Assembly: GCA_903916735.1 (NCBI GenBank)
Contig: CAIWXX010000095.1
Coordinates: 1-34,293, forward strand
Direction of reading: 5' to 3'
Origin: an uncultured Acidobacteriota bacterium
Lineage (GTDB): Bacteria; Acidobacteriota; CAIWXX01
Length of the DNA stretch: 34,293 bases
This document shows, one piece after another, positions 9,631 through 33,340 of this stretch. The position numbers and the translations under genes were made by a program. The notes under the pieces are model-generated. The model was given only the letters and a program-made list of their open reading frames with translations, was not told the DNA's origin and did not search any database. Each line of letters begins with the position of its first letter. Position 1 is the first letter of the stretch.

Positions 9631-9651
9631 AATCCGAGGGGATTAACACGC

Positions 9652-11001: not shown

Positions 11002-11009
11002 GATTTACG

Positions 11010-11054
11010 ATGAAAGGGTGGTCGATTGTGAATTTCTTAATACCCTGGTTATAG
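11010..11054 (+). CDS. Possible 14-residue leader ORF coupled to the next GT2 gene
   Basis: ATG at 11010 opens a 14-codon frame (MKGWSIVNFLIPWL) with a TAGGA element 6 nt upstream. Its TAG stop at 11052-11054 ends one base before the ATG of the following GT2 gene at 11056, which has no Shine-Dalgarno of its own. The arrangement is what a translational-coupling leader would look like, but such short frames also arise by chance. The hydrophobic peptide has no recognisable function. Confidence 0.25.
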   Translation: MKGWSIVNFLIPWL

Positions 11055-11055
11055 A

Positions 11056-11991
11056 ATGGAAAATCGAGCCGCGGAGCTGAGGAATCACCCCTCGTCTACT
11101 GCTTTCAATGTCGGCGTCGTGATCGTCAATTACAACCGACGACAGATCACACTACGAGCTGTGGATTCGGTCATGCGAAACGGCGGCGAGCTGATGAGAG
11201 TGATCGTTGTCGAAAATTCGGAAGATAATGATGAACGCTTGCAGAAGAATCCCCGCTACGAGGTCCTGGACTGTCATGAGAACACCGGGTTTGCCGGCGG
11301 ATGCAATGCGGGTATCGCTCGCCTTTCGGAACAGGGGGTCACTCACTTTCTTCTGCTCAATAATGATGCCGTCCTATTGCCCGGCTGTATCGATCACTTG
11401 ACTGCGGCTTTTGATCGAGAACCTCATGCGGGGATCATCGCCCCGGCCGTTATTCGCGGTGATGGCAGTATTGAATCGGTTGGCATACGGATCAACCGGA
11501 TCACAGGTCGCCACAGGCTCATCGGATACGGAGATCATGTTTCATTGGCAGGTACTTTCCGACAGGTCGAGGCGGCCACAGGGACTGCCATGCTGATCTC
11601 CAAGACATGCTTTGAGAAAACCGGTGGCTTCGATGCGAGGCTTTTTTGCTACTTTGAAGATGTCGACTTCTGCTACCGGGCTAAAAATGCCGGGTTTTCA
11701 ATTCATGTTGAACCAGCCGCCCGCGTGCAGCATCTGAAGGACGGTATTTCGCCCGAAGAAATTTACTACAGTTGTCGTAATCATCTGATCCTCTTGCAGC
11801 GCCATATGCCTCAGACGATCGGGGGAAGAATTCAGGCCGGATTTGTCAGCGGCTTGTATCGGCTTTACCTGGCACGATCTGGCATGAGGCATTCGGTCGA
11901 TCATAAGAAAGCTCTGCGCCAGGCCATTCATGATGCTAACCCCGGCGTCCGACGATTAGGCCGGCGGACAACACTGAAGCAAGAAGATTAG
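11056..11991 (+). CDS. GT2 family glycosyltransferase (WbbL/rhamnosyltransferase-like)
   Basis: The 311-residue product has the features of GT2 enzymes that extend O-antigen chains: VGVVIVNYN at residues 19-27, NTGFAGGCNAG, the LLLNNDAV metal site near residue 100, and the C-terminal catalytic segment FEDVDFCYRAKNAGF. It lies 54 nt after the GT4 gene. No ribosome-binding site precedes the ATG, so translation may depend on the upstream mini-ORF or on read-through from the GT4 gene. The product should be a cytosolic transferase on the growing polyprenyl-linked glycan. Confidence 0.86.
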   Translation: MENRAAELRNHPSSTAFNVGVVIVNYNRRQITLRAVDSVMRNGGELMRVIVVENSEDNDERLQKNPRYEVLDCHENTGFAGGCNAGIARLSEQGVTHFLLLNNDAVLLPGCIDHLTAAFDREPHAGIIAPAVIRGDGSIESVGIRINRITGRHRLIGYGDHVSLAGTFRQVEAATGTAMLISKTCFEKTGGFDARLFCYFEDVDFCYRAKNAGFSIHVEPAARVQHLKDGISPEEIYYSCRNHLILLQRHMPQTIGGRIQAGFVSGLYRLYLARSGMRHSVDHKKALRQAIHDANPGVRRLGRRTTLKQED

Positions 11992-12061
11992 GTTAGGAGT
12001 ATTGTGTGCAAAACCCCTCAACAGGTTCGCCCGTTTTCTGAGATGCTGCTCGGCCTCTCTG

Positions 12062-12090
12062 TTGCCATGCACCTTAATTTGCCTTAAATT
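12062..12090 (+). promoter_or_regulatory. Candidate internal promoter for the GT2-DUF2304 pair
   Basis: TTGCCA (12062-12067) and TAAATT (12085-12090) are 17 bp apart in the 133-nt gap before the GT2 gene. Expected start is near 12097. It would allow the last two genes to be expressed separately from the wzm operon. Confidence 0.4.
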
Positions 12091-12124
12091 ATGATTGATA
12101 CTCAACAGGGGCATCAAGCTGGAA

Positions 12125-12883
12125 ATGAAAATCGATCGAATGAGCGGGCAAAATGCGGGTGTGGCTGAACGCAGAGTCATGGTTATCATTCCCGCTTTCA
12201 ACGAAGAAGCGGCTCTTGGATCTCTCATCCCCAAAGCCCGGGCGCGTTGCCCTCGATGCGATCTGGTTGTCGTGGATGACGGCAGTACCGACGACACGTT
12301 GAAAATAGCATATGCGGCGAAGGTGATCGTCCTCCGGCATCCCGTTAATCTAGGGTACGGCGCCAGTCTGCAGACCGGCATTGAGTATGCGCTGCGTCGA
12401 GGATATTCAACAGTTGCTTTCTTGGATGCTGATGGGCAGCATGAGCCCGAGGACCTTGAGAAGCTCCTGGCTCCGGTCGTATCGGGGCAATGTGATGTGG
12501 CGATCGGATCGCGTTTTCTCGACCCAGGTTCCTATCGCCACGGCGTGTTCCGGAAGTTCGGCAGCTGGGCCTTCTCACGACTGGTCCGTTTGCTGACATC
12601 GATCCCGGTGACGGATCCGACGTCAGGCGCTCGAGCGTTGAACCGCCGAGCCATGCGCTTGTACACAAGAGAAGGTTTTCCCGACGAATTTCCGGATGTC
12701 AGCGCGATTGTGCTCTATCATCGATACGGCCTGCGGGTCTGCGAAGTTCCGGTGCGGATGTATCCGTCCGTGAAAAAACGTCCGATGCATCGCGGGATGA
12801 CCGTCCCATATTACATTTTCAATGTGTTCTTTTCGATCCTCATCGCTCTCCTGCAGGAAGGAACTCCGGCAAAAGAGGAGTAA
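12125..12883 (+). CDS. GT2 family glycosyltransferase (DPM1-like)
   Basis: I choose the ATG at 12125 (252 residues); ATG at 12140 is equally possible and a TTG at 12095 less so. The protein shows VMVIIPAFNEE, the nucleotide site LVVVDDGSTDDT, and the metal-binding FLDADGQHEPED motif (D101 and D103). It also has the PTSGARALNRRAM stretch seen in polyprenyl-phosphate hexose transferases. It is followed after 5 nt by a DUF2304 membrane protein. This pairing recurs in bacterial genomes and suggests that the soluble GT2 is anchored by its partner at the membrane. Confidence 0.87.
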   Translation: MKIDRMSGQNAGVAERRVMVIIPAFNEEAALGSLIPKARARCPRCDLVVVDDGSTDDTLKIAYAAKVIVLRHPVNLGYGASLQTGIEYALRRGYSTVAFLDADGQHEPEDLEKLLAPVVSGQCDVAIGSRFLDPGSYRHGVFRKFGSWAFSRLVRLLTSIPVTDPTSGARALNRRAMRLYTREGFPDEFPDVSAIVLYHRYGLRVCEVPVRMYPSVKKRPMHRGMTVPYYIFNVFFSILIALLQEGTPAKEE

Positions 12884-12888
12884 ATCCG

Positions 12889-13269
12889 ATGCCAATTCGA
12901 CAGAAGATTTTCGCAATCATTATGGGAGCTCTTATCTTCTTTGCCATCATCGAACTTGTCCGGCGAAAACGACTTCGGCTGGAATATTCCTGGCTTTGGC
13001 TCTTGACAGGGGTCACGATTTTGACCCTCACTTTCTCCTATGATCTTCTGCTTTTCCTCACAAAACTCATTGGCGCCGTCTCGTCGACGACAACGCTGCT
13101 CCTCTTCGCCTTTCTTCTTCTGCTCAGCATCAGCCTGCACTTCTCTGTTCGCATCTCATCACTACAGACAACCGTCAAGATGCTCAGCCAGGAAATTGCT
13201 CTTCTCAGAGCGATGAGGCAGGAGGAGGGGATCAAGCCTGCGGACGATATGAGAGACTCTCCTGACTGA
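12889..13269 (+). CDS. DUF2304-family small membrane protein
   Basis: The 126-residue protein has an N-terminal helix (about residues 6-22), two more hydrophobic helices (about 33-58 and 64-85), and a C-terminal coiled-coil-like tail with LQTTVKMLSQEIALLRAM. That layout and the LEYSWLWL stretch fit DUF2304, whose genes regularly follow DPM1-like GT2 genes. Its role is unproven; membrane anchoring or flipping of the polyprenyl-phosphate sugar is the usual suggestion. A GAGGAG ribosome-binding site lies inside the last codons of the preceding gene. Confidence 0.8.
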   Translation: MPIRQKIFAIIMGALIFFAIIELVRRKRLRLEYSWLWLLTGVTILTLTFSYDLLLFLTKLIGAVSSTTTLLLFAFLLLLSISLHFSVRISSLQTTVKMLSQEIALLRAMRQEEGIKPADDMRDSPD

Positions 13270-13451
13270 GGAATCGTCATGCCGCCCGCGGCGCCCTTTT
13301 GCGCAACATCCGCACAGGCACTCTTGGATGCTCATTCTCAGGCGCTGGTATAAGGAGCTATTCTGTTGGTCCAGATCTTTTGCATCCGGCAACGATCATG
13401 ATAGTCAGATGCGCCAGGGCTAAAAAATCCGCGAAGCTTAAAGCCTCGGCC

Positions 13452-13895
13452 TTAATGATGTCGGGGCTTCTCGGTGCGATACGTTTCGTATGTTTCCGGC
13501 TTCGGATTTTTCCAATTGGGCGTGATGAGAAGAGATTTTCCGGCTTTCATCCGTTCGCCGGACATGAGAATTGCATCGACTTCGACGAACAGCCAGTGCG
13601 GCTTCTGATTGGGAATATTGATAGGCACCCCGACGCTGCGCCTCTCACCCCGTACCATCGGAAGCGATGGCATGGGCGCTGATGATAATGGGAGTTTGTC
13701 AAGGTAAGCGGTCAGAGTGATACTCAGAATGGGCATTTTCGCCGTGACTTCGAATTGCGCCCACATCATGCCGACTGTCTGCTGGGGGACTTTGATTTCA
13801 ATTGAGACCGCCGCTTTCATAGGCGCCGGGAAGACAGGTTTATAGGCCGATATGAGCAGGCAACCGACAATCAATCCCGTACGTATTCTCACCAT
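13452..13895 (-). CDS. Small secreted protein of unknown function
   Basis: The start is the ATG at 13895, placed by a GAAGAG ribosome-binding site and a good promoter immediately upstream. The 147-residue product begins MVRIRTGLIVGCLLISAY and then FPAP, a plausible signal peptide cleaved near residue 25. The mature part is beta-strand-like, with SIEIKVPQQTVGMMWAQFEVTAKMP and a proline- and lysine-rich end. I do not recognise a family. It faces the wzm operon tail convergently and stands alone. Confidence 0.65.
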   Translation of the reverse strand: MVRIRTGLIVGCLLISAYKPVFPAPMKAAVSIEIKVPQQTVGMMWAQFEVTAKMPILSITLTAYLDKLPLSSAPMPSLPMVRGERRSVGVPINIPNQKPHWLFVEVDAILMSGERMKAGKSLLITPNWKNPKPETYETYRTEKPRHH

Positions 13896-13914
13896 GTTCT
13901 CTTCAATCGAGCTG

Positions 13915-13943
13915 ACTATATCAAAATCAAACCCACGCGGCAA
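13915..13943 (-). promoter_or_regulatory. Promoter of the small secreted protein gene
   Basis: On the minus strand TTGCCG (complement of 13938-13943) and TATAGT (complement of 13915-13920) are 17 bp apart. Transcription would start near 13908, about a dozen bases before the ATG at 13895. Confidence 0.55.
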
Positions 13944-14061
13944 GAATTTACTTTTTATCAGGTGGATTACCACCATCTCGCTCCTCAGCCACTATCGGGA
14001 GTCAATGTTCAATTGACTAAAATTTCTCGACCCAAGGACTCAATGGCACGAGGTAAAGAAC

Positions 14062-14127
14062 CACGGAAGAACGCAGATAAACAGAGATACCCGGCATCCG
14101 ATCTGTGTTCATCCCTGTTCAATTGTG
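14062..14127. repeat. Imperfect inverted repeat
   Basis: The 27-base arm at 14062-14088 matches the reverse complement of 14101-14127 at 18 of 27 positions, with a 12-nt loop. The repeated core is of the form GAACxxxGATxAACA-AGAT. It resembles the loose, partly palindromic intergenic repeats that litter some large bacterial genomes; copy number elsewhere cannot be judged from this window. Confidence 0.5.
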
Positions 14128-14281
14128 TTTTCGAAGCATTTTCCTTGCCGGCAACAATTTTGTCTTGCACCCCCTAACGCTGCATAGCCGCAACCAAACA
14201 AGGTGGCTTCTACAATCATCGCTCCTGAACCTCTCAGGAATGGAACGGATTTTCATTTCGACCAGCAGTGATTTCATAAGC

Positions 14282-14317
14282 CATTCCTGCATTCCTTTCT
14301 TCCTGGCGTCCTGAGAG
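14282..14317. repeat. Intergenic repeat, copy 1
   Basis: This segment, with core TTCCTGCATTCCT, then CTTCCTGGC and TCCTGAGAG, matches 18114-18149 with only a few mismatches over 36 bases. The copy also folds: CAGGAATGG at about 14236-14244 is the exact complement of CCATTCCTG at its start, and CTCTCAGGA is the complement of its TCCTGAGAG end. Confidence 0.55.
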
Positions 14318-14442
14318 AAATTCACGATTATGTCCTGTCACAGGTCTTACCATTTTATGCACAGATTTCACCGGTTAGACGCTAAGGTATGGGATCTATC
14401 AATTTGACTTGCACTCAAGATCCGGCATGCACTCACCCCAGA

Positions 14443-14471
14443 TTGATGTTTCTGCGATCCTTGGCTATACT
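14443..14471 (+). promoter_or_regulatory. Promoter driving the leader of the radical SAM operon
   Basis: TTGATG (14443-14448) and TATACT (14466-14471) are exactly 17 bp apart. The expected start point is near 14478, giving a leader of about 272 nt before the radical SAM ATG at 14750. Confidence 0.55.
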
Positions 14472-14477
14472 TACGCC

Positions 14478-14749
14478 ATGCTTTTGGATTTAATAACATC
14501 GGAAACATAGCTGAATTTCGCTCGGTTGAGAGGCATTCTCAATCGGGCTCAATAAAATCAATTGCTTGTGTCATTATTTGAATGGAAATGCTCAGGATTT
14601 CAACACGGCCAGCGGGAATAACAGCCCCAACTCTCTTATTGAGAGGAAAGGCGAGAATGCTTGCATGCGCGCAATATTTTTAACGACGGCAACTAACCGG
14701 TCAGGCCGGTTGGATCTGCAAAAAAGCTCCTTTAGTTATTGAGGCAATC
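14478..14749 (+). promoter_or_regulatory. Long structured 5' leader of the radical SAM / aminotransferase operon
   Basis: Three hairpins can be drawn in this leader. One pairs GGTTGAGA (14524-14531) with TCTCAATC (14537-14544), a second pairs CTCTC (14631-14635) with GAGAG (14641-14645), and a third pairs AACCGG (14695-14700) with CCGGTT (14706-14711). No known riboswitch signature was recognised; in particular I see no cobalamin-type B12 box. A GAGG ribosome-binding site follows at the end. It may be an uncharacterised regulatory leader or simply a long 5' UTR. Confidence 0.35.
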
Positions 14750-16144
14750 ATGCGCATAGTGCTTGCAGATCTGGATGGGACAGATGGTTTTGTCAGCAAG
14801 GACACTGTAGCGGGGGGGTTTGGCTCGAGGTTCATCCCATTCTCTCGAGTGACCCGAGTAATTTATTACATGAAGCGGCGATATCATGAAATGCCTAGCA
14901 TGCAGATGGCCTATCTGGCAGCCATCGCAAGCACAGCCGGGCATGAGGTCCTCTGGACACGGGACGAATTCATCGATGGAGACGTGGCGATAGTATTATC
15001 TTCGTTGGTTGATTTCCGCCATGAAATCGCCTGGGCAGATGCTATGCGCACGCGAGGAGTCCGAGTTGGTTTTATAGGACTCGCTGCATCGAAAATCCCG
15101 GACATATTCGCGGAGCATGCTGATTTTGTCATAATGGGAGAGCCGGAAAGTGCTATGAGGCGCCTCGTTCAAGGCGAGAAACTCAGCGGTCTCTGCGAAA
15201 GCGAGCCCATCGAGAACCTGAATACGCTACCGTTTCCGCGTTGGGATCTCGTTCTAGACGGATATCGGCAGCGCAGCCTCAGTTTCTCGGCCCGGGCGGT
15301 TGGGGGAGGATTTCCCTTGCAAACAAGTCGCGGATGCCGGGAATTCTGCACCTATTGCCCGCATCGCATTCTCGCCGGGTATCGTTCTCGATCCATCCAA
15401 AGCGTTATTAATGAGCTCGAACAGCTCTGTGATCGCTTCCGGCGGCCGCAGGTCAAATTTCGCGATCCCGTATTTACGGAAGATCGTGATCGCTGCCTAG
15501 CGATCTGCGATGAGATTCAAGCTCGAGGGCTCGATCTTCGTTTCGAGTGTGAAACCCGGCTGGATCGAGTCGACACGGATTTGCTCGATAAAATGTACAA
15601 AGCCGGGCTCAGGGTGCTGAGCTTCGGCGTCGAATCCGTTTCTGCGGAATCGCTGAGCAGGGTTGGGCGGAGGCCGGTTCCGGAGGCCCACCAGCGCTCT
15701 CTGGTCGAGTATTGCCGACGTCGGGGCATCTTAACGGCTGCGTTTTATATACTTGGCCTGCTCGATGATGATTGGACATCGATCTCCGCGACGATCGACT
15801 TCGCCTGCGATCTCGGTTCGACACTTGCTCAGTTCAAACTGCTGACCCCTTACCCGGGCACACCTTTCTGGAAACAGGTCGAGCCACTTGTTTATGAAAA
15901 AGATTGGCAGAAATTCGATGGGTTTACTCCGACCTTCAAGCACCCGAATCTAACAGCCACTGAACTGAAATTTCTGCTAGGAGCCGCCTATACGCATTTC
16001 TATATGCGGCCTTCCTATCTCGCCAACTACCTCAAGATTCACAATACTCACGTACGACAAGTGATCGGAAAGATGGATGATAAGGTTATCGCTCTGCACG
16101 CACATTATGAAATTCAACATATGTCGAGGCCGGTGACATGTTAG
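14750..16144 (+). CDS. B12-binding-type radical SAM enzyme
   Basis: The 464-residue protein has an N-terminal cobalamin-binding-like Rossmann region (about 1-150, including VRVGFIGLAASKIPDIF and FVIMGEPE), but no DxHxxG motif. The radical SAM core follows, with CREFCTYC giving the cluster ligands C196, C200 and C203. Further motifs are FECETRLDRV, LRVLSFGVESVSAESL and FYILGLLDDD. A C-terminal helical part of about 90 residues completes it. Enzymes of this class methylate, cyclise or rearrange sp2/sp3 carbons of lipids and sugars. A GAGG ribosome-binding site precedes the ATG. Its stop overlaps the start of a DegT-type aminotransferase by 7 nt, so the two are likely to act on one substrate. 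Confidence 0.88.
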   Translation: MRIVLADLDGTDGFVSKDTVAGGFGSRFIPFSRVTRVIYYMKRRYHEMPSMQMAYLAAIASTAGHEVLWTRDEFIDGDVAIVLSSLVDFRHEIAWADAMRTRGVRVGFIGLAASKIPDIFAEHADFVIMGEPESAMRRLVQGEKLSGLCESEPIENLNTLPFPRWDLVLDGYRQRSLSFSARAVGGGFPLQTSRGCREFCTYCPHRILAGYRSRSIQSVINELEQLCDRFRRPQVKFRDPVFTEDRDRCLAICDEIQARGLDLRFECETRLDRVDTDLLDKMYKAGLRVLSFGVESVSAESLSRVGRRPVPEAHQRSLVEYCRRRGILTAAFYILGLLDDDWTSISATIDFACDLGSTLAQFKLLTPYPGTPFWKQVEPLVYEKDWQKFDGFTPTFKHPNLTATELKFLLGAAYTHFYMRPSYLANYLKIHNTHVRQVIGKMDDKVIALHAHYEIQHMSRPVTC

Positions 16145-17394
16145 AGGCCATTTCCCGTTACGGCGCCCGTATCATATCCAACACCGAACAGACCATCGCC
16201 GCTTGCCGTGGACGCGGGGAGCTGATACAGGGGCCGCAGATTTCAGAATTCGAACGAGCCTTCGAAAAATTTCATGGATGCGGCCGTGCCATTTCGGCTT
16301 CCTATGGGCGAATGGCCTTCTTTTATCTCCTCAAAGCATTCGATTTCCCCCCCGGCTCCGAGATCGTGTTCCCTGCACTCACATTCTGGGTCGTACCTGA
16401 ACTGGCGAAAGTCTCCGGCCTGAAAATTGTTTTCGCGGATGTCGATCCCGCGACGTATACACTGGATCCAGCCTCGCTGGAGCGAGTCATCACCGACAGG
16501 ACTCGCGCCGTCGTGCCGACTCACCTCTATGGACTGTCATGCGATATGGACAAAATCCTGTCGATTGCTGCCCGGCATCGGCTGGCGGTCATCGAAGACT
16601 GCGCTCACGCTTTAGGTGCGACCTATCGAGGGCGGCTGGTTGGAACACTCGGAGATGCGAGCTTCTTCAGTTTTCAGACGCTGAAGCCGTTGAATACGTA
16701 TGGAGGCGGAATGGCGCTCATCCATGATCCGGCGATCGCCGATCGAGTCGCCGGCTTCGTTTCGGCGGAAAAATGGCCGGATGAGAAACGGGTGCTTGGC
16801 CGGCTGGGGTCTGGACGATGGCAGAGAAGGATGATTCGTCCCGGCGTCTTCACCTACACCGCCTTCCCAATTCTTTGGGCGGCGTCGTGGTTCATGGCAC
16901 GGCCCGATGTCTATCTTTGGGAAAAAATCCGTCCCCTGAGCCCTCTACCGGATTCCTATATCGAACGCTATTCCAATGTCCAAGCGGCCATCGGGTTGGC
17001 TGGGCTGAGCCGGTTGGCAGATTGGAACTCTGCAACGCAGGCCCATGCGCGGGTCATGAATGAAGCGTTGCAGGGTCTCGTCGGTGTACAGGCACCTATC
17101 GTGCCGCCTGAACAGACTCACGCCTATTATCAATATTGCGTTTATGGCCCTGATCGCGATGATATTCTACGCCGATGCATCAAGAGAGGGGTTGATGTTG
17201 AAATCCTTCATGTCGATGTCTGTTCGCAGCTGGCTCTTTTCGGAGATGCACAGGGCAAGATGCCGGGCGCTGAACGTGCGGCCGATGCTTTTCAGGTTCC
17301 AGTGTACGAATCCCTCACCGATGAGCAGGTTCATCGCGTGTCCGACGTGGTTCGAGATGTCCTGGTGAAAAAGCAAGAAGTCTCCAGGGTCTGA
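16138..17394 (+). CDS. DegT/DnrJ/EryC1-family PLP-dependent aminotransferase
   Basis: The 418-residue product is a fold-type I aminotransferase of the sugar-aminating family. VIEDCAHALG (residues 151-160) supplies the PLP-binding D154, and the SFFSFQTLKPLNTYGGGM segment carries the Schiff-base lysine K183. These enzymes transfer an amino group from glutamate to a keto-sugar nucleotide, or act on related cyclitols. The C-terminus is longer than in many family members and includes an unusual hydrophobic insertion (FTYTAFPILWAASWFMA, about 238-254). The start overlaps the radical SAM stop by 7 nt (ATGTTAG), indicating translational coupling. The joint product is probably an unusual amino-sugar or amino-lipid, but this is inference. 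Confidence 0.9.
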   Translation: MLEAISRYGARIISNTEQTIAACRGRGELIQGPQISEFERAFEKFHGCGRAISASYGRMAFFYLLKAFDFPPGSEIVFPALTFWVVPELAKVSGLKIVFADVDPATYTLDPASLERVITDRTRAVVPTHLYGLSCDMDKILSIAARHRLAVIEDCAHALGATYRGRLVGTLGDASFFSFQTLKPLNTYGGGMALIHDPAIADRVAGFVSAEKWPDEKRVLGRLGSGRWQRRMIRPGVFTYTAFPILWAASWFMARPDVYLWEKIRPLSPLPDSYIERYSNVQAAIGLAGLSRLADWNSATQAHARVMNEALQGLVGVQAPIVPPEQTHAYYQYCVYGPDRDDILRRCIKRGVDVEILHVDVCSQLALFGDAQGKMPGAERAADAFQVPVYESLTDEQVHRVSDVVRDVLVKKQEVSRV

Positions 17395-18586: not shown

Positions 18587-18696
18587 CCTTTCGACTCGTT
18601 TTCAGGTAAACTAGAGAGAGCATTCGTGATGCCTTCTCCGAGGGCCGGCTGGGCCCGATGGAACCTTTTGGCGGGCGTTTCCGTTTGGATAGGTGG

Positions 18697-19281
18697 ATGA
18701 TGAATGAAGAAACCCTGAACGATAGGGAACTCGTTCGGAGATGCCTTCAAAGAGATGAGGATGCGTGGCGAATGCTTATCAAAAAGTACCAGCGAAGGGT
18801 TTACAACCTCTGCTATCAGTTTTTCGGACGAGCGGGGAGGGCTGAGGAGATGACCCAGGAGGTTTTCATGAGATTGTACGGGTCGCTAAACCGGTACAAC
18901 TTCGAGATGGAGTTTCCGACATGGTTGATGTCGGTCGCCAGAAACCTCTGCATCGATTTTTATCGGCATCATAAGAAGGAGAAATTCGTGGATATCGACG
19001 TCGTTGCCGCATTGCCTGCGCCGAATGGCGATGGGCCTGCTGCCGAGTACGAGCGCAGTGAAGCTCACCGGACGATCCACGAGGGGTTGCTTCGATTGAG
19101 CGACGACCTCCGGATGGCCGTGATCCTACGAGATATCCAGGGTTACAGTTACGACGAAATCGCGGCGGTTTTGAGCGCGCCTCTGGGGACTGTGAAATCC
19201 AGAATCAATAGAGGCCGTTTGGAATTGGCTCGAATGCTCATGGCCCAGCGAGAGGCCGGTGAGCTTGGAGGAACGGCATGA
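18697..19281 (+). CDS. ECF (group 4) RNA polymerase sigma factor
   Basis: The 194-residue protein has only sigma regions 2 and 4. Region 2 (about 25-92) includes AEEMTQEVFMRLYGSL and FPTWLMSVARNLCIDFYR. Region 4 (about 130-182) includes YSYDEIAAVLSAPLGTVKSRINRGR, its DNA-binding helix-turn-helix. An ATG at 18658 would add 13 residues; I prefer 18697/18700 because family members begin just before the DRELVRRC segment and an AGGTGG lies alongside. The next gene, an anti-sigma factor, starts within its stop codon (ATGA, 19278-19281). The pair should control an envelope-stress regulon, probably including this operon. Confidence 0.9.
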   Translation: MMNEETLNDRELVRRCLQRDEDAWRMLIKKYQRRVYNLCYQFFGRAGRAEEMTQEVFMRLYGSLNRYNFEMEFPTWLMSVARNLCIDFYRHHKKEKFVDIDVVAALPAPNGDGPAAEYERSEAHRTIHEGLLRLSDDLRMAVILRDIQGYSYDEIAAVLSAPLGTVKSRINRGRLELARMLMAQREAGELGGTA

Positions 19282-19886
19282 ATTGCAAACAGGTACAGGA
19301 TCTCCTGCCGGAATTCGTTGACCGGCAGCTCAAGCAGACTTTCCTGGCCGGTGTCGAAACCCACCTCAAAGCCTGCTCGGAATGCGAGACTCTTCTCACG
19401 ATCTATCGGCAGAATATGCAGCTCCTCGGGAGTTTCCCCGAGGTCGAGCCGCCACCCGATCTGGTGGAAAAAATAGTCCGGCGGACGGCCAAGCCGGCTG
19501 GTTTCCTGGCTCTCATGGAACGATATCTTCGGCTCCCAGCGCCGGTTCTTCTGCCTGCCGTCTCGGCATTGCTGATCCTTCTTCTTGGCCCGGCGTTCCT
19601 TCAAATGAACACGGTGCCGAGTCGGTCGGCCAACAAATATATCCACCGGGCCTGGTCTTACTCCACGCGGCTCTACGGCAAGGCCGAAGGCATGGGGCAG
19701 GAAATCGCGACGTTCAAGAACATCTTTATGCTGATCCTCGACCGTCGCGTTGAAAAGGTACAGGAAGAACTCGAAAACTATCGGAAGCAGAAAAACGACC
19801 AACAGAGTTCTCAAACGAGCTATATCACATGCGATGGGAACGGGTCTCATCAAGGAGCGATAAACCATGTATTGCATGAATCATGA
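19278..19886 (+). CDS. zf-HC2 anti-sigma factor with one membrane helix
   Basis: The 202-residue protein begins with a zinc-binding anti-sigma domain: C3, then H29, C33 and C36 in VETHLKACSECE. A hydrophobic segment at about residues 69-90 (VLLPAVSALLILLLG) places the zinc domain in the cytoplasm and the remaining 110 residues outside. The C-terminal third is charged and coiled-coil-like (VEKVQEELENYRKQ). It is coupled to the sigma gene by an ATGA overlap and shares its last 20 nt with the next gene. It should hold the sigma factor inactive until an envelope signal arrives. Confidence 0.85.
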   Translation: MNCKQVQDLLPEFVDRQLKQTFLAGVETHLKACSECETLLTIYRQNMQLLGSFPEVEPPPDLVEKIVRRTAKPAGFLALMERYLRLPAPVLLPAVSALLILLLGPAFLQMNTVPSRSANKYIHRAWSYSTRLYGKAEGMGQEIATFKNIFMLILDRRVEKVQEELENYRKQKNDQQSSQTSYITCDGNGSHQGAINHVLHES

Positions 19887-20502
19887 AACAGTCGAGAGTG
19901 TCACACTCTGCCACTCGTGCGGACGTCCGATCTGCCAGCAGTGCCAGCATGATGTGAAGGGGGTCAATTACTGCCCCGAATGTCTGGCACAGGCAATGGA
20001 GAAGCCGAAGCCCGCGCCGATTCCGCCGAAAACACCCGGCTTGGCCGCATTTTTGGCGGCCGTGGTTCCAGGCCTCGGCGCCATTTACAACGGGCAGTAC
20101 ATCAAAGCCGTTGCATTCCTTGCCATCTTCGCAGGGATCATCCAGGGCCTGACGAATGTGAGCGGTCCTGGGGAAGCGGTCTTTCTAAGTATCGCGTTGG
20201 CTTGCTTCTGGTTCTACATGCTCTTTGATGCTTACCGCTCCGCCCAGGCGATCAATGAGAAACCAGTCGATGCATCCTCCACGATTCCAACAACAACCAA
20301 TGGTGATCGCGAATCACTGACAGGCGGAATCGTCATTGCTGCCATCGGCTTGCTGTTTCAGCTTAATAATTTCGAGATACACATTTTCAGAAACGTGTTG
20401 AAGCTTTGGCCGCTTGTGATCATCATTATCGGTATCATTATGCTTAAAAATTACTTCGCTGAAGCTAAAGCGAAGGACGAGGAGGGGAAAGAAAATGTCT
20501 AA
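19867..20502 (+). CDS. Zinc-finger / TM2-like / DUF5668-like membrane protein
   Basis: The 211-residue protein has a B-box-like cytosolic zinc finger (C3, H6, C15, C18, C23, C26, C36, C39). A proline-rich linker leads to a TM2-like hairpin (about 55-118, with AAVVPGLGAIYNGQYIKA). Two further helices (about 150-192) contain GGIVIAAIGLLFQLNN and KLWPLVIIIIGI, as in the LiaF/LiaI transmembrane family DUF5668. An AAGGAG ribosome-binding site lies within the end of the anti-sigma gene. It overlaps the next gene by 8 nt. Its job is not known; position and architecture suggest a membrane sensor or scaffold feeding the anti-sigma factor. Confidence 0.8.
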   Translation: MYCMNHETVESVTLCHSCGRPICQQCQHDVKGVNYCPECLAQAMEKPKPAPIPPKTPGLAAFLAAVVPGLGAIYNGQYIKAVAFLAIFAGIIQGLTNVSGPGEAVFLSIALACFWFYMLFDAYRSAQAINEKPVDASSTIPTTTNGDRESLTGGIVIAAIGLLFQLNNFEIHIFRNVLKLWPLVIIIIGIIMLKNYFAEAKAKDEEGKENV

Positions 20503-20701
20503 ACTAAGATCGATTGATTCGCTGGTATTCGGAATTGTCCTTCTCCTGCTCGGAACGGTCATTCTACTGCAGAACCTTGGGGTGGACTTTGACCTCTGGT
20601 ACTACGTCGCCAAGTTCTGGCCGATGATTCTGATCGTTTACGGGTTGCTGAAGGTTATGCGGGCTCTTCAACAGAGGACAGGCGGCAATGAAAGCGCGTG
20701 A
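20495..20701 (+). CDS. Small LiaF/LiaI-like (DUF5668-type) membrane protein
   Basis: This 68-residue protein consists of two helices (about 9-27 and 36-56), with LVFGIVLLLLGTVILLQNLG and KFWPMILIVYGLLK. It repeats the C-terminal hairpin of the preceding protein, suggesting duplication of a module. A strong GAGGAGGGG ribosome-binding site lies upstream. It overlaps the gene before it by 8 nt and the gene after it by 14 nt. By analogy with LiaI/LiaF it may act in membrane-stress sensing. Confidence 0.8.
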   Translation: MSKLRSIDSLVFGIVLLLLGTVILLQNLGVDFDLWYYVAKFWPMILIVYGLLKVMRALQQRTGGNESA

Positions 20702-22085
20702 AATCGTCTTTGTCATCCTCGTCGTCCTCTTCGGACTATCGATCCAGAGCTTCGTTGGATTCAATCCATCTCCGTACTTTCACATCGATACGGACTGGGA
20801 TCAGGATCGGTACCGTGAGTACACGGAAACGAAAGAGGTGGCGGCGGATGCGAAGCTCCCGATCCTATTTGAAAATGCCTACGGTGATGTGACGATTCGC
20901 GGATGGGATGAGCCACGGATTTCGATTCTCTTGAGGAAGCGCGTGTGCATGCGTGAAGAGGAAAAAGCGCGGGCTGAAGCGGACCGGATCCACATTGTGG
21001 CCGAGCCGAAATCCGGGGAGATGTATCTCGGCAGCAACCGATCCAAGGAAAATAGAATCGGCACGAACCTGCAGACGGATTTCGAAGTGACAATTCCCAA
21101 TTCGATCTTTCTCAAAATTGTGGGCGAACATGGGGATTTCAAAATTCAGAACTTGAAATCGGCTGGAGTTGATCTGGCGATTGCCTATGGAGACCTTGAT
21201 ATGAAGAATATCGAGGGCAATACGACGATCCGGAATGATCATTCCGAAATATCCCTCAACGGACTGGCTGGAAATCTCCTCCTTGATGATACATACGATG
21301 ACCTGACGCTCATCCGGATCAGTGGCGATGCCAAAGTGAAAAACACTCATGGGGATGTGGATATAGAAAATGTCGGAGGAGGGCTGGATCTGATCGCGGA
21401 TTACGGCGATATCGTGCTGAAGCAAGTTGCCAAGGATGTGACGGTGGCAGGCGACCACTCTTCCGTGCAGCTCAATGATTGCCTTGGCAACGCCACAATC
21501 AATAACAGCTATGAAAGCATTGATGTGACGAAGGTCAGTGGAAAGCTCAATGCCACCGGGGATCATAGCCCGGTCACTTTCAAAGATATCGGCGATGCCG
21601 TCAAAATTCAAACGAGTTACGACGAAATCGATGGCGCCCGGATCAAGGGGCCCTTGACCGTTCAGGGTGATCGTGCGTCGGTGAATTTGAAAAATCTTGA
21701 GGCCGGCTGCACGGTTAATACGACGAATGAGGATGTGACGATCGTCGATTTCGTGGGGAAGATCGACATCACTGCGCCTCATGGGAGTTGCCGTTTGAGG
21801 GCCAGCATACCGCCATCGTCGCCGATCGCGGTACATTCCGACAACGGCGACATTCGGATTGTTCTTCCGCCAAACTCCCAATTTCAGTTTCTCGCGGAAA
21901 CTGTCTCTGCCGAAATTAAATGCCGCTACCCCAGCATGAATACATATCGCACGGATGAGAATCAGCGCGTCCGCGTGACCGGCTCTTCTGGAGGCCAGGC
22001 TCGTGGTCCGATGGTGGAACTACGAAGCACTTACGGCGACATCACGATTGTCGAGGCAGGGAAACAAGAGGACGAGGAGGAATGA
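20688..22085 (+). CDS. DUF4097-type beta-solenoid protein with an 18-residue Tyr/His repeat
   Basis: The 465-residue protein has a hydrophobic N-terminal segment (about 5-22; signal peptide or anchor), a preamble with one NAYGDVTI unit (Y65), then a long run of short beta-strand repeats. From residue 167 to 365 the same position recurs every 18 residues exactly: Y167, H185, Y203, H221, Y239, H257, Y275, H293, Y311, R329, N347, H365, with H148 one residue off. Tyr and His strictly alternate until the last three units. This fits a right-handed beta-solenoid facing the periplasm or surface. A last STYGDITI (Y449) precedes a short acidic tail. It ends the five-gene sigma operon and is followed directly by a terminator. 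DUF4097 proteins are called putative adhesins, but their function is unproven. Confidence 0.8.
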   Translation: MKAREIVFVILVVLFGLSIQSFVGFNPSPYFHIDTDWDQDRYREYTETKEVAADAKLPILFENAYGDVTIRGWDEPRISILLRKRVCMREEEKARAEADRIHIVAEPKSGEMYLGSNRSKENRIGTNLQTDFEVTIPNSIFLKIVGEHGDFKIQNLKSAGVDLAIAYGDLDMKNIEGNTTIRNDHSEISLNGLAGNLLLDDTYDDLTLIRISGDAKVKNTHGDVDIENVGGGLDLIADYGDIVLKQVAKDVTVAGDHSSVQLNDCLGNATINNSYESIDVTKVSGKLNATGDHSPVTFKDIGDAVKIQTSYDEIDGARIKGPLTVQGDRASVNLKNLEAGCTVNTTNEDVTIVDFVGKIDITAPHGSCRLRASIPPSSPIAVHSDNGDIRIVLPPNSQFQFLAETVSAEIKCRYPSMNTYRTDENQRVRVTGSSGGQARGPMVELRSTYGDITIVEAGKQEDEEE

Positions 22086-23451: not shown

Positions 23452-24213
23452 ATGAGAGAGCTTTGCACGGTTCTGCCGTGGGATTCCGATTTCTTTGGCA
23501 TTCGAATCGCACGACTGAATTCGACGGCGCCTTCAGCCGAGGATTTTGATGCGGCGACTGAATGGTGTCATCAGAGGAGCGTGCGGTGTCTCTACTTCCT
23601 CTGCGACTCGAACGCGAAGACGAGCGCCCGGCAGGCCGGCCACAGGGGATTCGACCTGATGGATATGCGGATCACGATGGCTAGCCGAAATGTTGCGGAT
23701 CATCGCGCTGCACGCATGATGCCGGAGGTGCTGATCCGGCCGGCACTCGATCATGATCTTGCCGCTCTTCGAGAATTATCCGGCCGAAGCTTTACTGAGA
23801 TGCGGTTTTTTGCCGACTCGCATTTTCCAAAGGAGCGTGTTCGAGCGCTCTATGAGTGTTGGGTCGATCGTGATTTCGCCTCTCCCGGCAGAATGGTTCT
23901 TATGGCTGAAATGGCCGGGCACTTTGCCGGATTCGTCACCGGCTCTCTGGAATCTGATGGAAGCGGGCTCGTCGGGCTCATCGCAACCCATGAAAGGGCA
24001 CGGGGAAAAGGCATCGGATCAGCGCTCATGGATGAGCTCCTGCGCGGCTTTCAGGGCATGAGTGCCTCCAAGGTTGTCGTTGTCACATCGGGATGCATTC
24101 CCAATGCGATGCGTCTTTATGAGAACCTTGGATTCCGGACCGAGTTAGTGCAGTTTTGGTTTCACCGGTGGTTTAACGAGGGCGAACTTGATTGTCCTGG
24201 TGAGGTGCGATGA
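23452..24213 (+). CDS. GNAT acetyltransferase (WecD/RffC-like)
   Basis: The ATG at 23452 gives MRELCTVLPWDSDFFG, matching the WDSxFFG start of dTDP-fucosamine acetyltransferase-like proteins. The 253-residue product has an N-terminal accessory domain. Its C-terminal GNAT domain (about 92-245) has the acetyl-CoA loop ERARGKGIGSAL (181-192) and the RFFADSHFP segment typical of this branch. It likely N-acetylates an amino sugar nucleotide for the surface glycan, perhaps the product of the DegT aminotransferase. Its last 41 nt overlap the end of the convergent membrane-protein gene. Confidence 0.82.
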   Translation: MRELCTVLPWDSDFFGIRIARLNSTAPSAEDFDAATEWCHQRSVRCLYFLCDSNAKTSARQAGHRGFDLMDMRITMASRNVADHRAARMMPEVLIRPALDHDLAALRELSGRSFTEMRFFADSHFPKERVRALYECWVDRDFASPGRMVLMAEMAGHFAGFVTGSLESDGSGLVGLIATHERARGKGIGSALMDELLRGFQGMSASKVVVVTSGCIPNAMRLYENLGFRTELVQFWFHRWFNEGELDCPGEVR

Positions 24214-26449
24214 AAGGATCCGGAACCAAAACTGTCTTGCCGGCCGAGGCCTCAGTGTCGGGTTCGGTGTGAATCTCAATACGATCGAATCGATAACGCA
24301 TCTTACGAGCTGAAGTTCCCTTCAATTTGAGGGATTGGGCGGGAACCCTGAATTCGATCAAATTTTCACCTTGGATGAGCTGAAGGTGGTCGACCTCACA
24401 CAGGTTGCACAGCGGGTTGCCCACAAGTATCCCATTTAAGTAGAATGACAGATCGCGGATATTGGATCGACCCCCATATTCCACCTTCGCTGTCGCATTG
24501 AGAGAGGATCGCGGTGAAAGCACTTGTATGCTGAATACCTGATCCTCGCGTTTGGTCCACCGGATTAGCTTGCCATGCACTTTCTCCGGCGATTCCCATC
24601 CCTGTCCAAATTGAACTTTCAATGATGCCGTCGATCCGAGCTTTCTTAGGATATAGCGATTGTTCACCCTCAATACTTCCTCCGAACCGACCCCTGTGAT
24701 CAAAACAATATCAGAATCCGCCTTTTCATCGAGTTCCAGCCTCCATTGACCCGCCAAGATACCCGTCCAGTATCCGTCATACGTTGGCAATTCTACGTAT
24801 AGTTTCTTCTTCAGTAGAAAATAAACGGGCCATATGACGATCCAAGGATCTTGATATGGAAGATTGATGGAGTCAATTCGAGGGTCATTTTCAATTTTGC
24901 CAAGATCAATAATGTCGTCATCCACGATACGACGAAGCTGTATGGCCCGATCATCGATAATATAAGCCGAGCAAACATTACCAACTAGAAGAAGTACAAT
25001 AAGTGTGATCGGAATGTAATTCCTAGGGAAATGATAATTCATCCGCCTGAACATAAGCAGGAGAGACGCGAATATGATCGGAAAGAAAAAAGAGAGAAGT
25101 TTGAAGCTCTTATATCCTCCCAAATGCCCTTCTAGATGGCCTTTGTACGCCAGAATAGTATATCCGGCGGAAATCGTCGCAAGCGATGCTAATGAGAGCC
25201 AGAAAGTCGTGCGATCCGTCTTGAACGTTTGAATGAGCCCCCACAGTGCCAAACCTATCACACAAATCGTGCCGATGTACCGGAGGACAATCGATGGAGA
25301 TCTGAGCCAGAATTCTCCGCCGGTCAATCCAAGCAGAGTATCCGGGTAGATCCAATTAACGAACCAACCTGCTTCGGCATTGCCCATAACTTGAAGACTA
25401 TTGAGGGCAGCTTTGGCCCGTTCGATCCATAATATTCCTGCAAGAATGAGAGACCATAGCGTGAGATGTGCCCAGCGAAATAGAATCGATGGTGATCTTT
25501 GTATTACAGCCATGAGAAAAACAAAAATGCCGATAGGGGCAAAAACAAAGAACACCATATGGGGATAAGTCACAGAGACAGTCCAGTTGAATAGAATGGC
25601 CAATGGAAGAAAGCGAATCGTCTGCATGATGGTTCTGCAATTTCTAACGGCGACTACATGGAGGATCACAATGGCGGTCGTGACCCCGGTGGTAATCGTC
25701 TGGCCCATGAATCCATGAAAGATGACGTACAACATGACGTGATTCAAGCCATAGAGCAGGGTGATAAAAGCAGCGCCCTTTCGATCGTAGCCAAACGCCT
25801 CGCGCACCAGTACATAGAAGGCGAGAATTCCAAAAAGAAAAAATACCTGGAGCAACATGCTCTGTATTTCGAAAGGCTGTACATGTAAGACAGAACTGGT
25901 GAACGCGCCCGCGAGGCTTCCGCCGAAAATCGTCTGATCTGCCATGCCTACGGTCGCATAGGTTTTAAATCCTAAAAACCCGGTACAGTCGGTTCTCGCA
26001 AACTCCTTTAGAAACCGGGCGGGGACGGCGACTGACGCAATATCATTATTGCCCGTCGTGATAGTGGTTGGACGATTCAGTCCCGCCACTTGAGGAATCA
26101 TGGCGATGATAAAGCACACAAGCGCGACGACGAAAGGCACCAGGATCTCTGAAGAAAATGGATTTTCCGTCTTAACTGGCCTGCGTTTATTAAAGATAAT
26201 TCCGGCCAGGATAAGTAAAAATATTGAGACAGCCAAGATGATCCAAGCGTATGAATCCGTACCTTTTAAATCGAGCCTGTAGAGATACCATCCGATCAGC
26301 GTCAGATAGGAATATCCAATTATCGGAGCTAGGAAAAGGGAATATCGGCGCAGGAAAGGTGGTAGGAGCAACCAGGTTAGTCCCAGGCCTAGACCCAGAT
26401 AAAGCAGAATGGAACCAATTGAACATAGAAAGTAAAAAATGAAAACCAT
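24173..26449 (-). CDS. Large GT-C-like multi-pass membrane protein
   Basis: The 758-residue protein has about twelve hydrophobic helices in residues 1-496, then a soluble C-terminal half (about 500-758) that is beta-rich near its end. After the third or fourth helix comes an external loop with TTGNNDIASVAVPARFLKE. D136 there is placed like the catalytic acidic residue of the first loop in GT-C glycosyltransferases. I do not recognise a named family. Such enzymes transfer sugars from polyprenyl-phosphate donors on the outer face of the inner membrane, and a GtrB-like donor synthase is two genes away. The gene looks more A+T-rich than its neighbours, hinting at transfer. It overlaps the GNAT gene tail-to-tail by 41 nt. 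Confidence 0.75.
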   Translation of the reverse strand: MVFIFYFLCSIGSILLYLGLGLGLTWLLLPPFLRRYSLFLAPIIGYSYLTLIGWYLYRLDLKGTDSYAWIILAVSIFLLILAGIIFNKRRPVKTENPFSSEILVPFVVALVCFIIAMIPQVAGLNRPTTITTGNNDIASVAVPARFLKEFARTDCTGFLGFKTYATVGMADQTIFGGSLAGAFTSSVLHVQPFEIQSMLLQVFFLFGILAFYVLVREAFGYDRKGAAFITLLYGLNHVMLYVIFHGFMGQTITTGVTTAIVILHVVAVRNCRTIMQTIRFLPLAILFNWTVSVTYPHMVFFVFAPIGIFVFLMAVIQRSPSILFRWAHLTLWSLILAGILWIERAKAALNSLQVMGNAEAGWFVNWIYPDTLLGLTGGEFWLRSPSIVLRYIGTICVIGLALWGLIQTFKTDRTTFWLSLASLATISAGYTILAYKGHLEGHLGGYKSFKLLSFFFPIIFASLLLMFRRMNYHFPRNYIPITLIVLLLVGNVCSAYIIDDRAIQLRRIVDDDIIDLGKIENDPRIDSINLPYQDPWIVIWPVYFLLKKKLYVELPTYDGYWTGILAGQWRLELDEKADSDIVLITGVGSEEVLRVNNRYILRKLGSTASLKVQFGQGWESPEKVHGKLIRWTKREDQVFSIQVLSPRSSLNATAKVEYGGRSNIRDLSFYLNGILVGNPLCNLCEVDHLQLIQGENLIEFRVPAQSLKLKGTSARKMRYRFDRIEIHTEPDTEASAGKTVLVPDPFIAPHQDNQVRPR

Positions 26450-27406: not shown

Positions 27407-27675
27407 TCTCAAATTGCAGCAATTGGCGAACATTATTTATTCGGATAATGAATAAATTTTCAAGTGAGGACAGATCGTTCCGATAATAGTCCTCCACTAT
27501 CAGAAGTAGGTTTATTTTCTGAGTGATGCATAGAGTTGGTAATAGTCGTCAGCGCGGAGAGGTTGCAGATATGATGTGATACAACTGGAAGAACTTGTGA
27601 CGGAGAACCTGCGTAATGAGAAGCAGAGTGAGGATCGATCGCCGGCACTTTGAGCGCGGCAGATCAGGAGGACTT
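27407..27675. other. Intergenic region between the toxin-antitoxin and ABC transporter genes
   Basis: The two operons diverge here. The region contains a perfect 8-bp inverted repeat, ATTTATTC/GAATAAAT (27435-27442 and 27450-27457), with a 7-nt loop and followed by TTTT. No convincing two-box promoter for the ABC genes was found. Confidence 0.4.
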
Positions 27676-28578
27676 GTGAAACTTGTCATTGATCGGGTCT
27701 CGAAGCTTTACCGTGGCTCCCTCTGGGGCCTGCGTCATTTCAGTCTCACTCTTGAATCCGGTGTGCTTGGATTGCTGGGACCGAACGGTGCTGGGAAATC
27801 TACACTCATGCGCATTCTTGCCACGATCACAAAACCGACGGAGGGACATGCGATCTGGAATGGCAGCGACCTTGCCGATGATCCGGATGCAGTGAGGGCC
27901 GTGCTGGGATATTTGCCGCAGGATTTTGGAGTTTATCCAAATCTCACAGCCATTGAATTCCTTGAATATCTGGCGGCAGTCCGCGGCTTGGATGGTCGCC
28001 AGTCGAAAAGACGCATTTCCGAGTTGCTCGAGATGGTGAATCTTACCGATGCCGCACGCCTGACACTGGGCAGTTATTCGGGAGGAATGAAGCAGAGAAT
28101 CGGCATCGCTCAGGCACTCCTCAATGATCCTAAACTTCTGATTGTGGATGAACCGACGGTTGGGTTGGACCCTGAGGAGAGAGTCCGCTTTCGGAATTTG
28201 CTCTCGGATCTTTCCGGGGACCGAATCGTGATCCTCTCAACGCACATCGTTTCCGACGTCGAAGCGGCGGCGACCGAACTGGCCATGATCTCCAAAGGCA
28301 GCCTCATCATGCATACCACCGCTGAGAATCTGTTGCGCATGGTTGAAGGCAAAGTCTGGGAATGGGTCATCTCCGGCGCCGACATCTCGGCGGCCAAGCA
28401 ACGTTACCTCATCAGCGGAACAGTCCGCCGCAGTGATGGCATCCACTTGCGGGTGGTTTCGGATTCATCGCCTGGTTCTGAAGCGAGCCTCATCACGCCT
28501 AACCTCGAAGATGCCTACCTCTACTGCATTCAATCGAGTCGTGAAGGCGAGCGCGCTGAGCAGTCTCACGCCAACTAA
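27676..28578 (+). CDS. ABC transporter ATP-binding protein
   Basis: The start is the GTG at 27676, because a perfect AGGAGG (27666-27671) lies 4 nt upstream; an ATG at 27616 has no such site. The 300-residue protein has Walker A GPNGAGKST (35-43), Q82 in the Q-loop, signature YSGGM (134-138), Walker B LLIVDEP (154-160) and STH as the switch. A C-terminal domain of about 90 residues follows, as in export ATPases of the ABC-2 group. It is followed after 12 nt by its permease. The substrate is unknown. Confidence 0.9.
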   Translation: MKLVIDRVSKLYRGSLWGLRHFSLTLESGVLGLLGPNGAGKSTLMRILATITKPTEGHAIWNGSDLADDPDAVRAVLGYLPQDFGVYPNLTAIEFLEYLAAVRGLDGRQSKRRISELLEMVNLTDAARLTLGSYSGGMKQRIGIAQALLNDPKLLIVDEPTVGLDPEERVRFRNLLSDLSGDRIVILSTHIVSDVEAAATELAMISKGSLIMHTTAENLLRMVEGKVWEWVISGADISAAKQRYLISGTVRRSDGIHLRVVSDSSPGSEASLITPNLEDAYLYCIQSSREGERAEQSHAN

Positions 28579-28590
28579 AGGCCGTCTATC

Positions 28591-30207
28591 ATGATCAGAA
28601 TGCTCTATCAGATTATGCGAGCGGATTTCCTGGAACGAACGCGCCGCTACAGTTTTCTCATCATACTTGGGATCACGGCCTATTTCGGATACATCTCTGT
28701 ACCGCCACCTGACGCCAACTATGTGACCCTCACACTGGGCAACTATCGCAGCCTCTATAACTCAGCCTGGATCGGCAACCTGGTCGTCATGATGACCACG
28801 ACGTTCCTGTCCTTGGCCGGGTTCTATCTCGTCCGGAACGTGGTTGATCGGGATCGACAGACGGGGGTCGGACAGATACTGGCCACGACTCGGATGACCA
28901 GAGTCCTCTACACAGTTGGGAAAATGCTCAGCAATCTGGCCGTCTTGATGGCTATTGTTGCGGTTTTGATTGTGATGGCCGTTGTCATGCAGATGGTGCG
29001 TGGGGAAGATCATGGGATACGGATTTGGCCTTTGCTGGCGCCCTTTATCCTGATTGCATTCCCTGCGATGGCTTTGGTTTCGGCGGTCGCCGTCTTCTCG
29101 GAAACCGCTTCTTGGCTGCAGGGCACCAAAGGCAACATCTTTTACTTCATTCTGTGGTGGATCTGCATGCTCGTGCCGGCGCAAATCAATCCGAAAGGTA
29201 CCAACAATCACTTCTTGGATCCGATGGGCGTGACAGTTCCACTTAAGAGTATGATGATATCGTGCCGCCGGGTTTTCCCCGATTATCAAAGTGACATGAA
29301 TTTCGGATTCATTTTCATGGATCAGAAAGTAAATCGGGGGACCTTTCACTTCGAGGGTGTCGACTGGACAGGTGAGATTTTGGCGAGTCGATTTCTCATG
29401 CTATCACTCGCTTTCGCTATCGCCGGCTTGTCGGCGCTCCCGTTTGATCGATTTGACCCGGCTCAGTATCGCGAGAAGCGTCAGCGAAAAAAAAGAACTG
29501 CGCCCACTGCTGTTGTGAAAGCGAGTCGTCCCCTCTCAACTCCTGTCACGCATCTCTCGACAATCATCGGAGGTTCGCTGAATTTCAGTTTCAATAGAAT
29601 GCTTGCAGCCGAACTGCGTCTCATGATGAAAGGGCTCAGTTTGTGGTGGTATGCCGTTGCCGCCGGTTTCGTCATTGCAGAGCTGTTCGCACCGCTTCCC
29701 ATCGCTCACAAATGGATACTCTCGTCTGCTTGGATATGGCCTCTTCCGCTCTTCTCAGCCATGGGCACACGCGAGGCACGGCATAATGCCGGACAACTTG
29801 TCTTCACGGCAGCTCATCCATTAAGGCGCCTGCTGCCGGCCTGCTGGCTTGCCGGTGTGTTCCTCGCGGCGACGACGGGAATTGGTGTTGCTGTGAGGTT
29901 GTTTACGAATGGGAGATGGATCGCATTGATCGCATGGGCGGTCGGCGCCGCCTTCATTCCAAGTCTGGCTCTAGCGTTCGGAATCTGGAGCCGTAGCAGC
30001 AAGCTTTTCGAAGTCATTTACACTCTTCTCTGGTATGCAGGTCCGATGAGCGGTCTGGCGGCGCTGGACTTTACGGGGGCCTCCGAGCCGGCTCAAACGG
30101 CTGGATCCTGCTTGATATTCGCCGCGGCAACGGTGGTCGTGCTGTTGCTTGCCTTCTACGGACGATCCCTCCAGCTGCGCGGGCGGCTCTCATCCCAGTC
30201 GTCATGA
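28591..30207 (+). CDS. ABC-2 type permease
   Basis: The 538-residue protein has about twelve hydrophobic helices in two halves joined by a basic linker (about residues 285-320, with REKRQRKKR). The N-terminal half carries an external loop (about 205-260) between its helices. Layout and the upstream ATPase mark it as the membrane part of an ABC exporter. Fusion of two six-helix halves would let one polypeptide form the channel. The next gene, a sensor kinase, begins 133 nt downstream and could regulate or sense this transporter. Confidence 0.82.
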   Translation: MIRMLYQIMRADFLERTRRYSFLIILGITAYFGYISVPPPDANYVTLTLGNYRSLYNSAWIGNLVVMMTTTFLSLAGFYLVRNVVDRDRQTGVGQILATTRMTRVLYTVGKMLSNLAVLMAIVAVLIVMAVVMQMVRGEDHGIRIWPLLAPFILIAFPAMALVSAVAVFSETASWLQGTKGNIFYFILWWICMLVPAQINPKGTNNHFLDPMGVTVPLKSMMISCRRVFPDYQSDMNFGFIFMDQKVNRGTFHFEGVDWTGEILASRFLMLSLAFAIAGLSALPFDRFDPAQYREKRQRKKRTAPTAVVKASRPLSTPVTHLSTIIGGSLNFSFNRMLAAELRLMMKGLSLWWYAVAAGFVIAELFAPLPIAHKWILSSAWIWPLPLFSAMGTREARHNAGQLVFTAAHPLRRLLPACWLAGVFLAATTGIGVAVRLFTNGRWIALIAWAVGAAFIPSLALAFGIWSRSSKLFEVIYTLLWYAGPMSGLAALDFTGASEPAQTAGSCLIFAAATVVVLLLAFYGRSLQLRGRLSSQSS

Positions 30208-30340
30208 GACGAAAGATCTGCTGAGCCTGATAGGCGCTGTGCCCGGAGGGGGGAAGCCTTGCATCTCTGTCTGCGAATTCCTGAGAGAGAAAATGTTTCC
30301 TCGACGAACCCATGATAAAATGCCGCTCATAGATCACAAT

Positions 30341-33319: not shown

Positions 33320-33340
33320 CCTGGGATGAAAAGATCGTAG

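Follow-up and report, generated by a model that had tools for sequence, protein, structure and literature searches.

The window analysed here, a stretch of 34,293 nucleotides from an uncultured Acidobacteriota bacterium, encodes a Toastrack (DUF4097) protein in which one position of an 18-residue repeat, column 4 of the unit, is occupied alternately by tyrosine and histidine over nine successive units. The reading that we prefer, with a confidence somewhat above even, is that this protein is a membrane-anchored solenoid closing a sigma factor operon, and that column 4 is an aromatic/polar corner-packing code that gives the solenoid a stiffened edge and possibly a docking rail. The features of the operon and of the repeat array are listed in Table 1.

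Table 1. Candidate features of the sigma factor operon and of the Toastrack repeat array, with positions in the window
Feature	Position	Strand	Basis
ECF sigma factor, opens the operon	18658..19281	+	Sigma70_r2 2.8e-18, Sigma70_r4_2 3.9e-14
zf-HC2 anti-sigma factor, overlaps the sigma factor gene by 4 bases	19278..19886	+	PF13490 1.6e-07
LiaI-LiaF-type membrane protein, Cys-rich N-terminus	19867..20502	+	PF18917 3.7e-10, PF22570 1.2e-07
Toastrack (DUF4097) protein, 465 aa; regions: N-terminal membrane anchor, intertwined N-terminal beta region, beta-solenoid with 18 residues per turn	20688..22085	+	PF13349 match
Predicted membrane anchor, residues 4-20, REIVFVILVVLFGLSIQ	20697..20747	+	sequence; K2/R4 at the start
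H148, which opens the series at a distance of 19 residues from Y167	21129..21131	+	sequence; His kept in homologue L006
Twelve exact 18-residue units, residues 164-379	21177..21824	+	sequence, strand columns of the models
Ladder from Y167 to H365, column 4 in all twelve units, YHYHYHYHYRNH	21186..21782	+	sequence, family statistics

The Tyr/His ladder

Translation of 20688-22085 on the forward strand confirms the exact ladder of the original prediction. Y167, H185, Y203, H221, Y239, H257, Y275, H293 and Y311 alternate strictly and are followed by R329, N347 and H365; the spacing is 18 residues throughout, with no insertions or deletions. The start at position 21129, claimed for the ladder, holds in part: H148 is encoded there and is a member of the same series, but the 19-residue gap after it restricts the exact ladder to 21186-21782. 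When periods from 10 to 40 were scanned, the longest Tyr/His alternation in the protein had nine members. The maximum in 2000 shuffles of the protein was four for Tyr/His and seven for any pair of residues. Thus the ladder is not a product of chance, as a run of nine is to be compared with a shuffle maximum of four.

Comparison of the array with itself gives 23% identity at a distance of 36 residues versus 10% at 18 residues. At the DNA level the units are only 34-42% identical to each other, and both tyrosine codons and both histidine codons are in use. Thus the array is old, and recent tandem duplication is ruled out as the origin of the ladder. The bends that contain the ladder residues are heterogeneous (YGD, HSE, YDD, HSS, YES, HSP).

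The repeat array is crossed by an antisense open frame of 338 aa (20865-21881, reverse strand), and the homologous locus L015 likewise contains a long antisense frame. The frame in the array is probably a by-product of codon use.

Conservation of the alternation

The sample consisted of 100 homologous proteins from one phylum, Acidobacteriota, collected in a search begun from a profile of the Tyr/His type. The 18-residue units were detected by a profile with the Tyr/His column masked, and the column was read afterwards. The nearest homologue, L006 (48% identity), has YHYHYHYHYHYH at the same 12 positions, and the alternation is kept at 12 of 12. Column 4 is identical between the two proteins at 10 of 12 positions, versus 96 of 204 in the other 17 columns (Fisher p = 0.014).

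In the 57 exact arrays, similarity at column 4 favours a distance of two units over one (lag2-lag1 2.52, z = 12.0; the permutation tests were run within arrays, and the statistics are uncorrected for kinship between arrays). The next-best column has z = 4.8, and a weaker two-unit period is seen in columns 3, 10, 11 and 16 (z 3.5-4.8). Column 4 is thus the dominant column with a two-unit period in the family, which supports the selected 36-residue double repeat proposed originally. With units of 17 and 19 residues allowed, there are 583 aromatic/non-aromatic switches between adjacent units, versus 415.7 ± 12.7 expected. The alternation is individually significant (p < 0.05) in 31 of the 100 proteins, a prevalence that is biased since the sampling profile was built from Tyr/His-type proteins. 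The significant proteins span eleven family labels (f1, f2, f24, f27, f38, f41, f48, f57, f62, f78, f81).

The longest runs alternate at 19 of 19 positions (F/N, FHFNFNFNFNFNFNFNFNF), 17 of 17 (F/S, FSFS...) and 14 of 14 (Y/S, YSYS...). Ten-unit columns of the types HYHYHYHYHY and YHYHYHYHYH are also found. In 28 alternating arrays, the aromatic parity contains 98 Tyr, 64 Phe and 9 other residues (Tyr or Phe at 162 of 171 positions), and the other parity contains 61 Asn, 58 His, 32 Ser, 5 Gln, 2 Arg and 2 Asp (Asn, His or Ser at 151 of 160); because these arrays were chosen for alternation, the counts are informative only about which residues make up each parity. The letters are exchanged (Y/F and H/N/S) while the class stays. 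Selection thus keeps an alternation of aromatic with small or polar residues and not of Tyr with His, the latter pair being one solution of several.

A neutral origin of the pattern should be considered here, in which the array grew by duplication of 36-residue double units and the ladder is a relic of this growth. The weaker two-unit period of columns 3, 10, 11 and 16 is what such growth would leave. On the other hand, in the long F/N, F/S and Y/S arrays the identity between units of the same parity is 96% at column 4 versus approximately 26-29% elsewhere in the unit, and there is little parity beyond columns 2-6. As the rest of the unit has diverged to approximately 25% identity between repeats, the alternation appears to be maintained and not freshly duplicated. 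Together with the constancy of the aromatic and polar classes under changing letters, this makes the neutral explanation improbable.

Other family members have uniform columns, with Tyr, His, Ser, Asn or Gly in all units. Thus the alternation is kept in L006, in the significant proteins and in runs of up to 19 units, but many columns are uniform and the identity of the residues as Tyr and His is not kept. Since so many members have a uniform column 4, the alternation is optional for the Toastrack fold. Near-uniform columns occur in L010 (YYYYHYYYYY), L053 (YYYYYYYHYHY) and L059 (HHHHHHHYH), and mutational tests could use these three proteins as a natural contrast. The columns of L081 (DHDHDHDHHSAH) and L060 (NHNHSHQHYHYL) show a mostly aromatic-free alternation of His with a smaller polar residue.

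The Toastrack protein of one genome from the same phylum is identical to a protein in a record of Candidatus Aminicenantes; Aminicenantes belongs to Acidobacteriota. Plasmid searches gave only weak matches from Actinobacteria and Firmicutes.

Predicted structure of the protein

The 465-aa protein matches the PF13349 profile with E 1.7e-19 and 70.6 bits, versus a gathering cut-off of 22.9. It scores 49 bits with the LiaG equivalog NF049997 (NCBIfam), below the cut-off of 285. The Toastrack domain (DUF4097/DUF2154/DUF2807; LiaG, the C-terminus of LiaF) was defined in a survey that described its beta-helix fold and its ties to LiaI-LiaF-TM and operonic sigma factors and proposed that signalling complexes are assembled by its two sheets (PMC11237479). 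The window protein shares with it PF13349 and a right-handed beta-helix with an intertwined N-terminal region, and is set apart by a long array of regular units whose bend column alternates between aromatic and polar residues, a feature for which no description was found.

Structures were predicted with AlphaFold for the window protein and for an F/N homologue, each from a two-sequence alignment. In the window model pLDDT is mostly above 90 over residues 170-350; in the model of the homologue it is approximately 95 over most of the array, and the layout is the same. The window model has the right-handed beta-helix with an N-terminal multi-stranded region known from 4QRK and 4OPW, and it superimposes on 4opw_A over 221 residues (3.0 Å, Z 15.6) and on 4qrk over 158 residues (2.9 Å, Z 13.5). 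The Bacteroidales "putative adhesins" of the DUF2807 type (3lyc, 3pet, 3ljy, 4opw) and 4qrk have the same fold, with 158-222 residues superimposed at 2.6-3.0 Å, and are shorter than the window protein. A sequence search of solved structures for relatives gave no convincing match (best E 0.79).

In both models each unit contains two strands, formed by columns 16-18, 1 and 2 (strand B) and by columns 7-12 (strand A), with bends at columns 3-6 and 13-15. Column 4 is assigned to a strand in 18-37% of units. According to these models, the ladder residue of each 18-residue turn lies in the four-residue bend that joins the two strands, and as there is one column-4 residue per turn in bend 3-6, the residues form one column. 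The beta-solenoid with one such residue per turn in a single column, as originally predicted, is therefore supported by both models.

The two models can be superimposed on region IV of MpAFP (3p4g) over 257 and 234 residues, each at 2.9 Å. This region consists of 19-residue repeats, one per turn (PMC3492233). A turn of 18 rather than 36 residues is supported by the two strands per 18 residues and by the fit to the 19-residue turns. A turn of 36 residues, which would place Tyr and His in two opposite columns, was rejected on the same grounds and because there is little parity in the strand columns. MpAFP and the RTX beta-roll resemble the window protein as two-sheet solenoids with one repeat per turn, but MpAFP has 19 residues per turn and Ca2+-dependent bends; no repeated calcium-binding bend of the type GGxGxD or xGTGND is present in the window array.

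Charged residues make up 10% of column 4, versus 0-1% of the core columns and 33-52% of most exposed columns. In the analogous bends the side chains point outwards, namely Thr/Asx of the MpAFP bend xGTGND (PMC3492233) and, in models, Tyr of the GYGS bends of the ice nucleation protein INP (PMC3196904). Because of the intermediate charge and these analogies, the ladder is probably on a semi-exposed edge, and we infer an outward orientation of its side chains. In the core column 16, turns whose column 4 is aromatic tend to have a larger residue and the adjacent turns a smaller one. Given this weak two-unit period (z = 4.5), column 4 could partly pack inwards.

The membrane anchor of the window protein is a helix at residues 4-18 in the AlphaFold model, with low pLDDT. 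K2 and R4 open the anchor and acidic residues follow it (20688-20790). By positive-inside reasoning, the solenoid is predicted to be outside the cytoplasm. This differs from the published survey, in which an intracellular location of Toastrack is argued for (PMC11237479).

Operon and genomic neighbourhood

The Toastrack gene is the last of a four-gene operon, preceded by the genes of the ECF sigma factor, the anti-sigma factor and the LiaI/LiaF-type protein; the latter gene overlaps the anti-sigma factor gene by 20 bases. The partnership with LiaI-LiaF-TM and an operonic sigma factor is shared with the published Toastrack systems (PMC11237479), and both the link to LiaI-LiaF-TM and that to a transcription regulator are present in the window. 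In genome G001, from the same class, the order (sigma-like, anti-sigma-like, LiaI-LiaF, Toastrack) and the 4- and 20-base overlaps match the window; there the LiaI-LiaF and Toastrack genes were assigned by Pfam, and the sigma-like and anti-sigma-like frames were read from the sequence. In the more distant G220, sigma factor, zf-HC2 and LiaI-LiaF genes lie in the same order upstream of the Toastrack gene. Sigma factor genes are also found near alternating Toastrack genes in G187, G071, G277 and G253. A promoter scan of the operon found no sigma-70-like site, and no PspA or PspC gene was found in the scanned subset of window ORFs. The operon probably serves as an envelope-stress system, in which Toastrack would be the sensor or an output scaffold.

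In locus L103 of G001, the gene of a DrrA-like ABC ATPase (8093-9001) begins where the Toastrack gene ends. The window encodes a similar ATPase together with a permease approximately 5.5 kb downstream of its Toastrack gene (27616-30207). A cluster of the polysaccharide-export type (993-17394) contains genes of a Wzt-like ABC ATPase (7475-8689), several glycosyltransferases, an epimerase, a PseC-like aminotransferase and a B12-type radical SAM protein. A frame of 758 aa without a Pfam match is on the reverse strand (24173-26449). The region 30149-34052 encodes a large propeller/Y_Y_Y sensor histidine kinase followed by a LuxR-type response regulator.

Possible role of the alternating column

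In the preferred corner-packing model, each 18-residue unit would form one turn, composed of strand B, the bend at columns 3-6, strand A and a second bend. The column-4 residues would then stack approximately 4.8 Å apart as one ladder along one edge, with an aromatic residue (Tyr or Phe) in every second turn and His, Asn or Ser, which are smaller and polar, in the turns between. The aromatic residues would be two turns apart, and each could lie over the polar neighbour of the next turn. Such a regular, mostly uncharged edge would stiffen the solenoid and may act as a docking rail.

A more general form of this proposal is tentative: the long solenoids of Acidobacteriota would carry a two-turn corner code, with aromatic residues approximately 9.6 Å apart, as an assembly zipper or a glycan rail for sigma-linked envelope-stress signalling.

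One possibility is self-association, where the aromatic residues of one solenoid would occupy the spaces over the polar residues of another that runs antiparallel to it. An analogue is the Tyr ladder of INP (PbINP), also a beta-solenoid with an aromatic residue in a short Gly-containing bend and a ladder along the edge. The INP ladders are at the GYGS bend, are modelled as exposed to solvent and are proposed to be a dimer interface (PMC3196904, PMC10727499). The window bend resembles S-Y-G-D, and knobs-into-holes packing would need just such an alternation of large and small residues, which in the family extends over as many as 19 turns. However, INP has 16-residue coils with Tyr on each coil and no alternation, whereas the window protein has 18-residue turns that alternate strictly, and in the latter the pattern is interrupted at R329/N347. 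By analogy, then, such a zipper is possible, if rather doubtful.

As a rail for glycan or peptidoglycan, the column would stack the aromatic residue of every second turn on one of the sugar rings in a glycan with beta-1,4 linkages. The disaccharide repeat of such glycans is approximately 10.3 Å, and two turns, the spacing of the aromatic residues, are close to it at approximately 9.6 Å; the mismatch of 0.7 Å per repeat, however, accumulates over many turns. The sigma-linked operon, the positive-inside topology that puts the domain outside and the nearby polysaccharide-export cluster are in line with such binding, but the argued intracellular location (PMC11237479) is not. We regard this role as unlikely.

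Finally, a metal, haem or proton-relay surface of stacked Tyr and His, as suggested by the original prediction, is very improbable: both residues are capable of this chemistry and the column is nearly all His in a few proteins (L059), but Phe often replaces Tyr (64 of 162 aromatic positions), Asn or Ser replace His (93 of the 151 Asn, His and Ser positions of the other parity), whole columns consist of Tyr, His, Ser or Gly, and His residues two turns (approximately 9.6 Å) apart with an aromatic residue between them would make no obvious metal site.

The fold and the operon type have already been published, and the alternating corner looks like a structural code. Searches of mostly open-access papers for Toastrack, for aromatic ladders in beta-solenoids and for DUF4097 together with sigma factors found no description of the alternating column. 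The column also shows that a beta-solenoid can have a higher-order period of two turns that is no leftover of recent duplication. Toastrack proteins occur widely as partners in envelope-stress systems. The strongly selected alternating edge column marks a specific surface in them, and mutants with a uniform column would offer a simple handle on assembly or binding.
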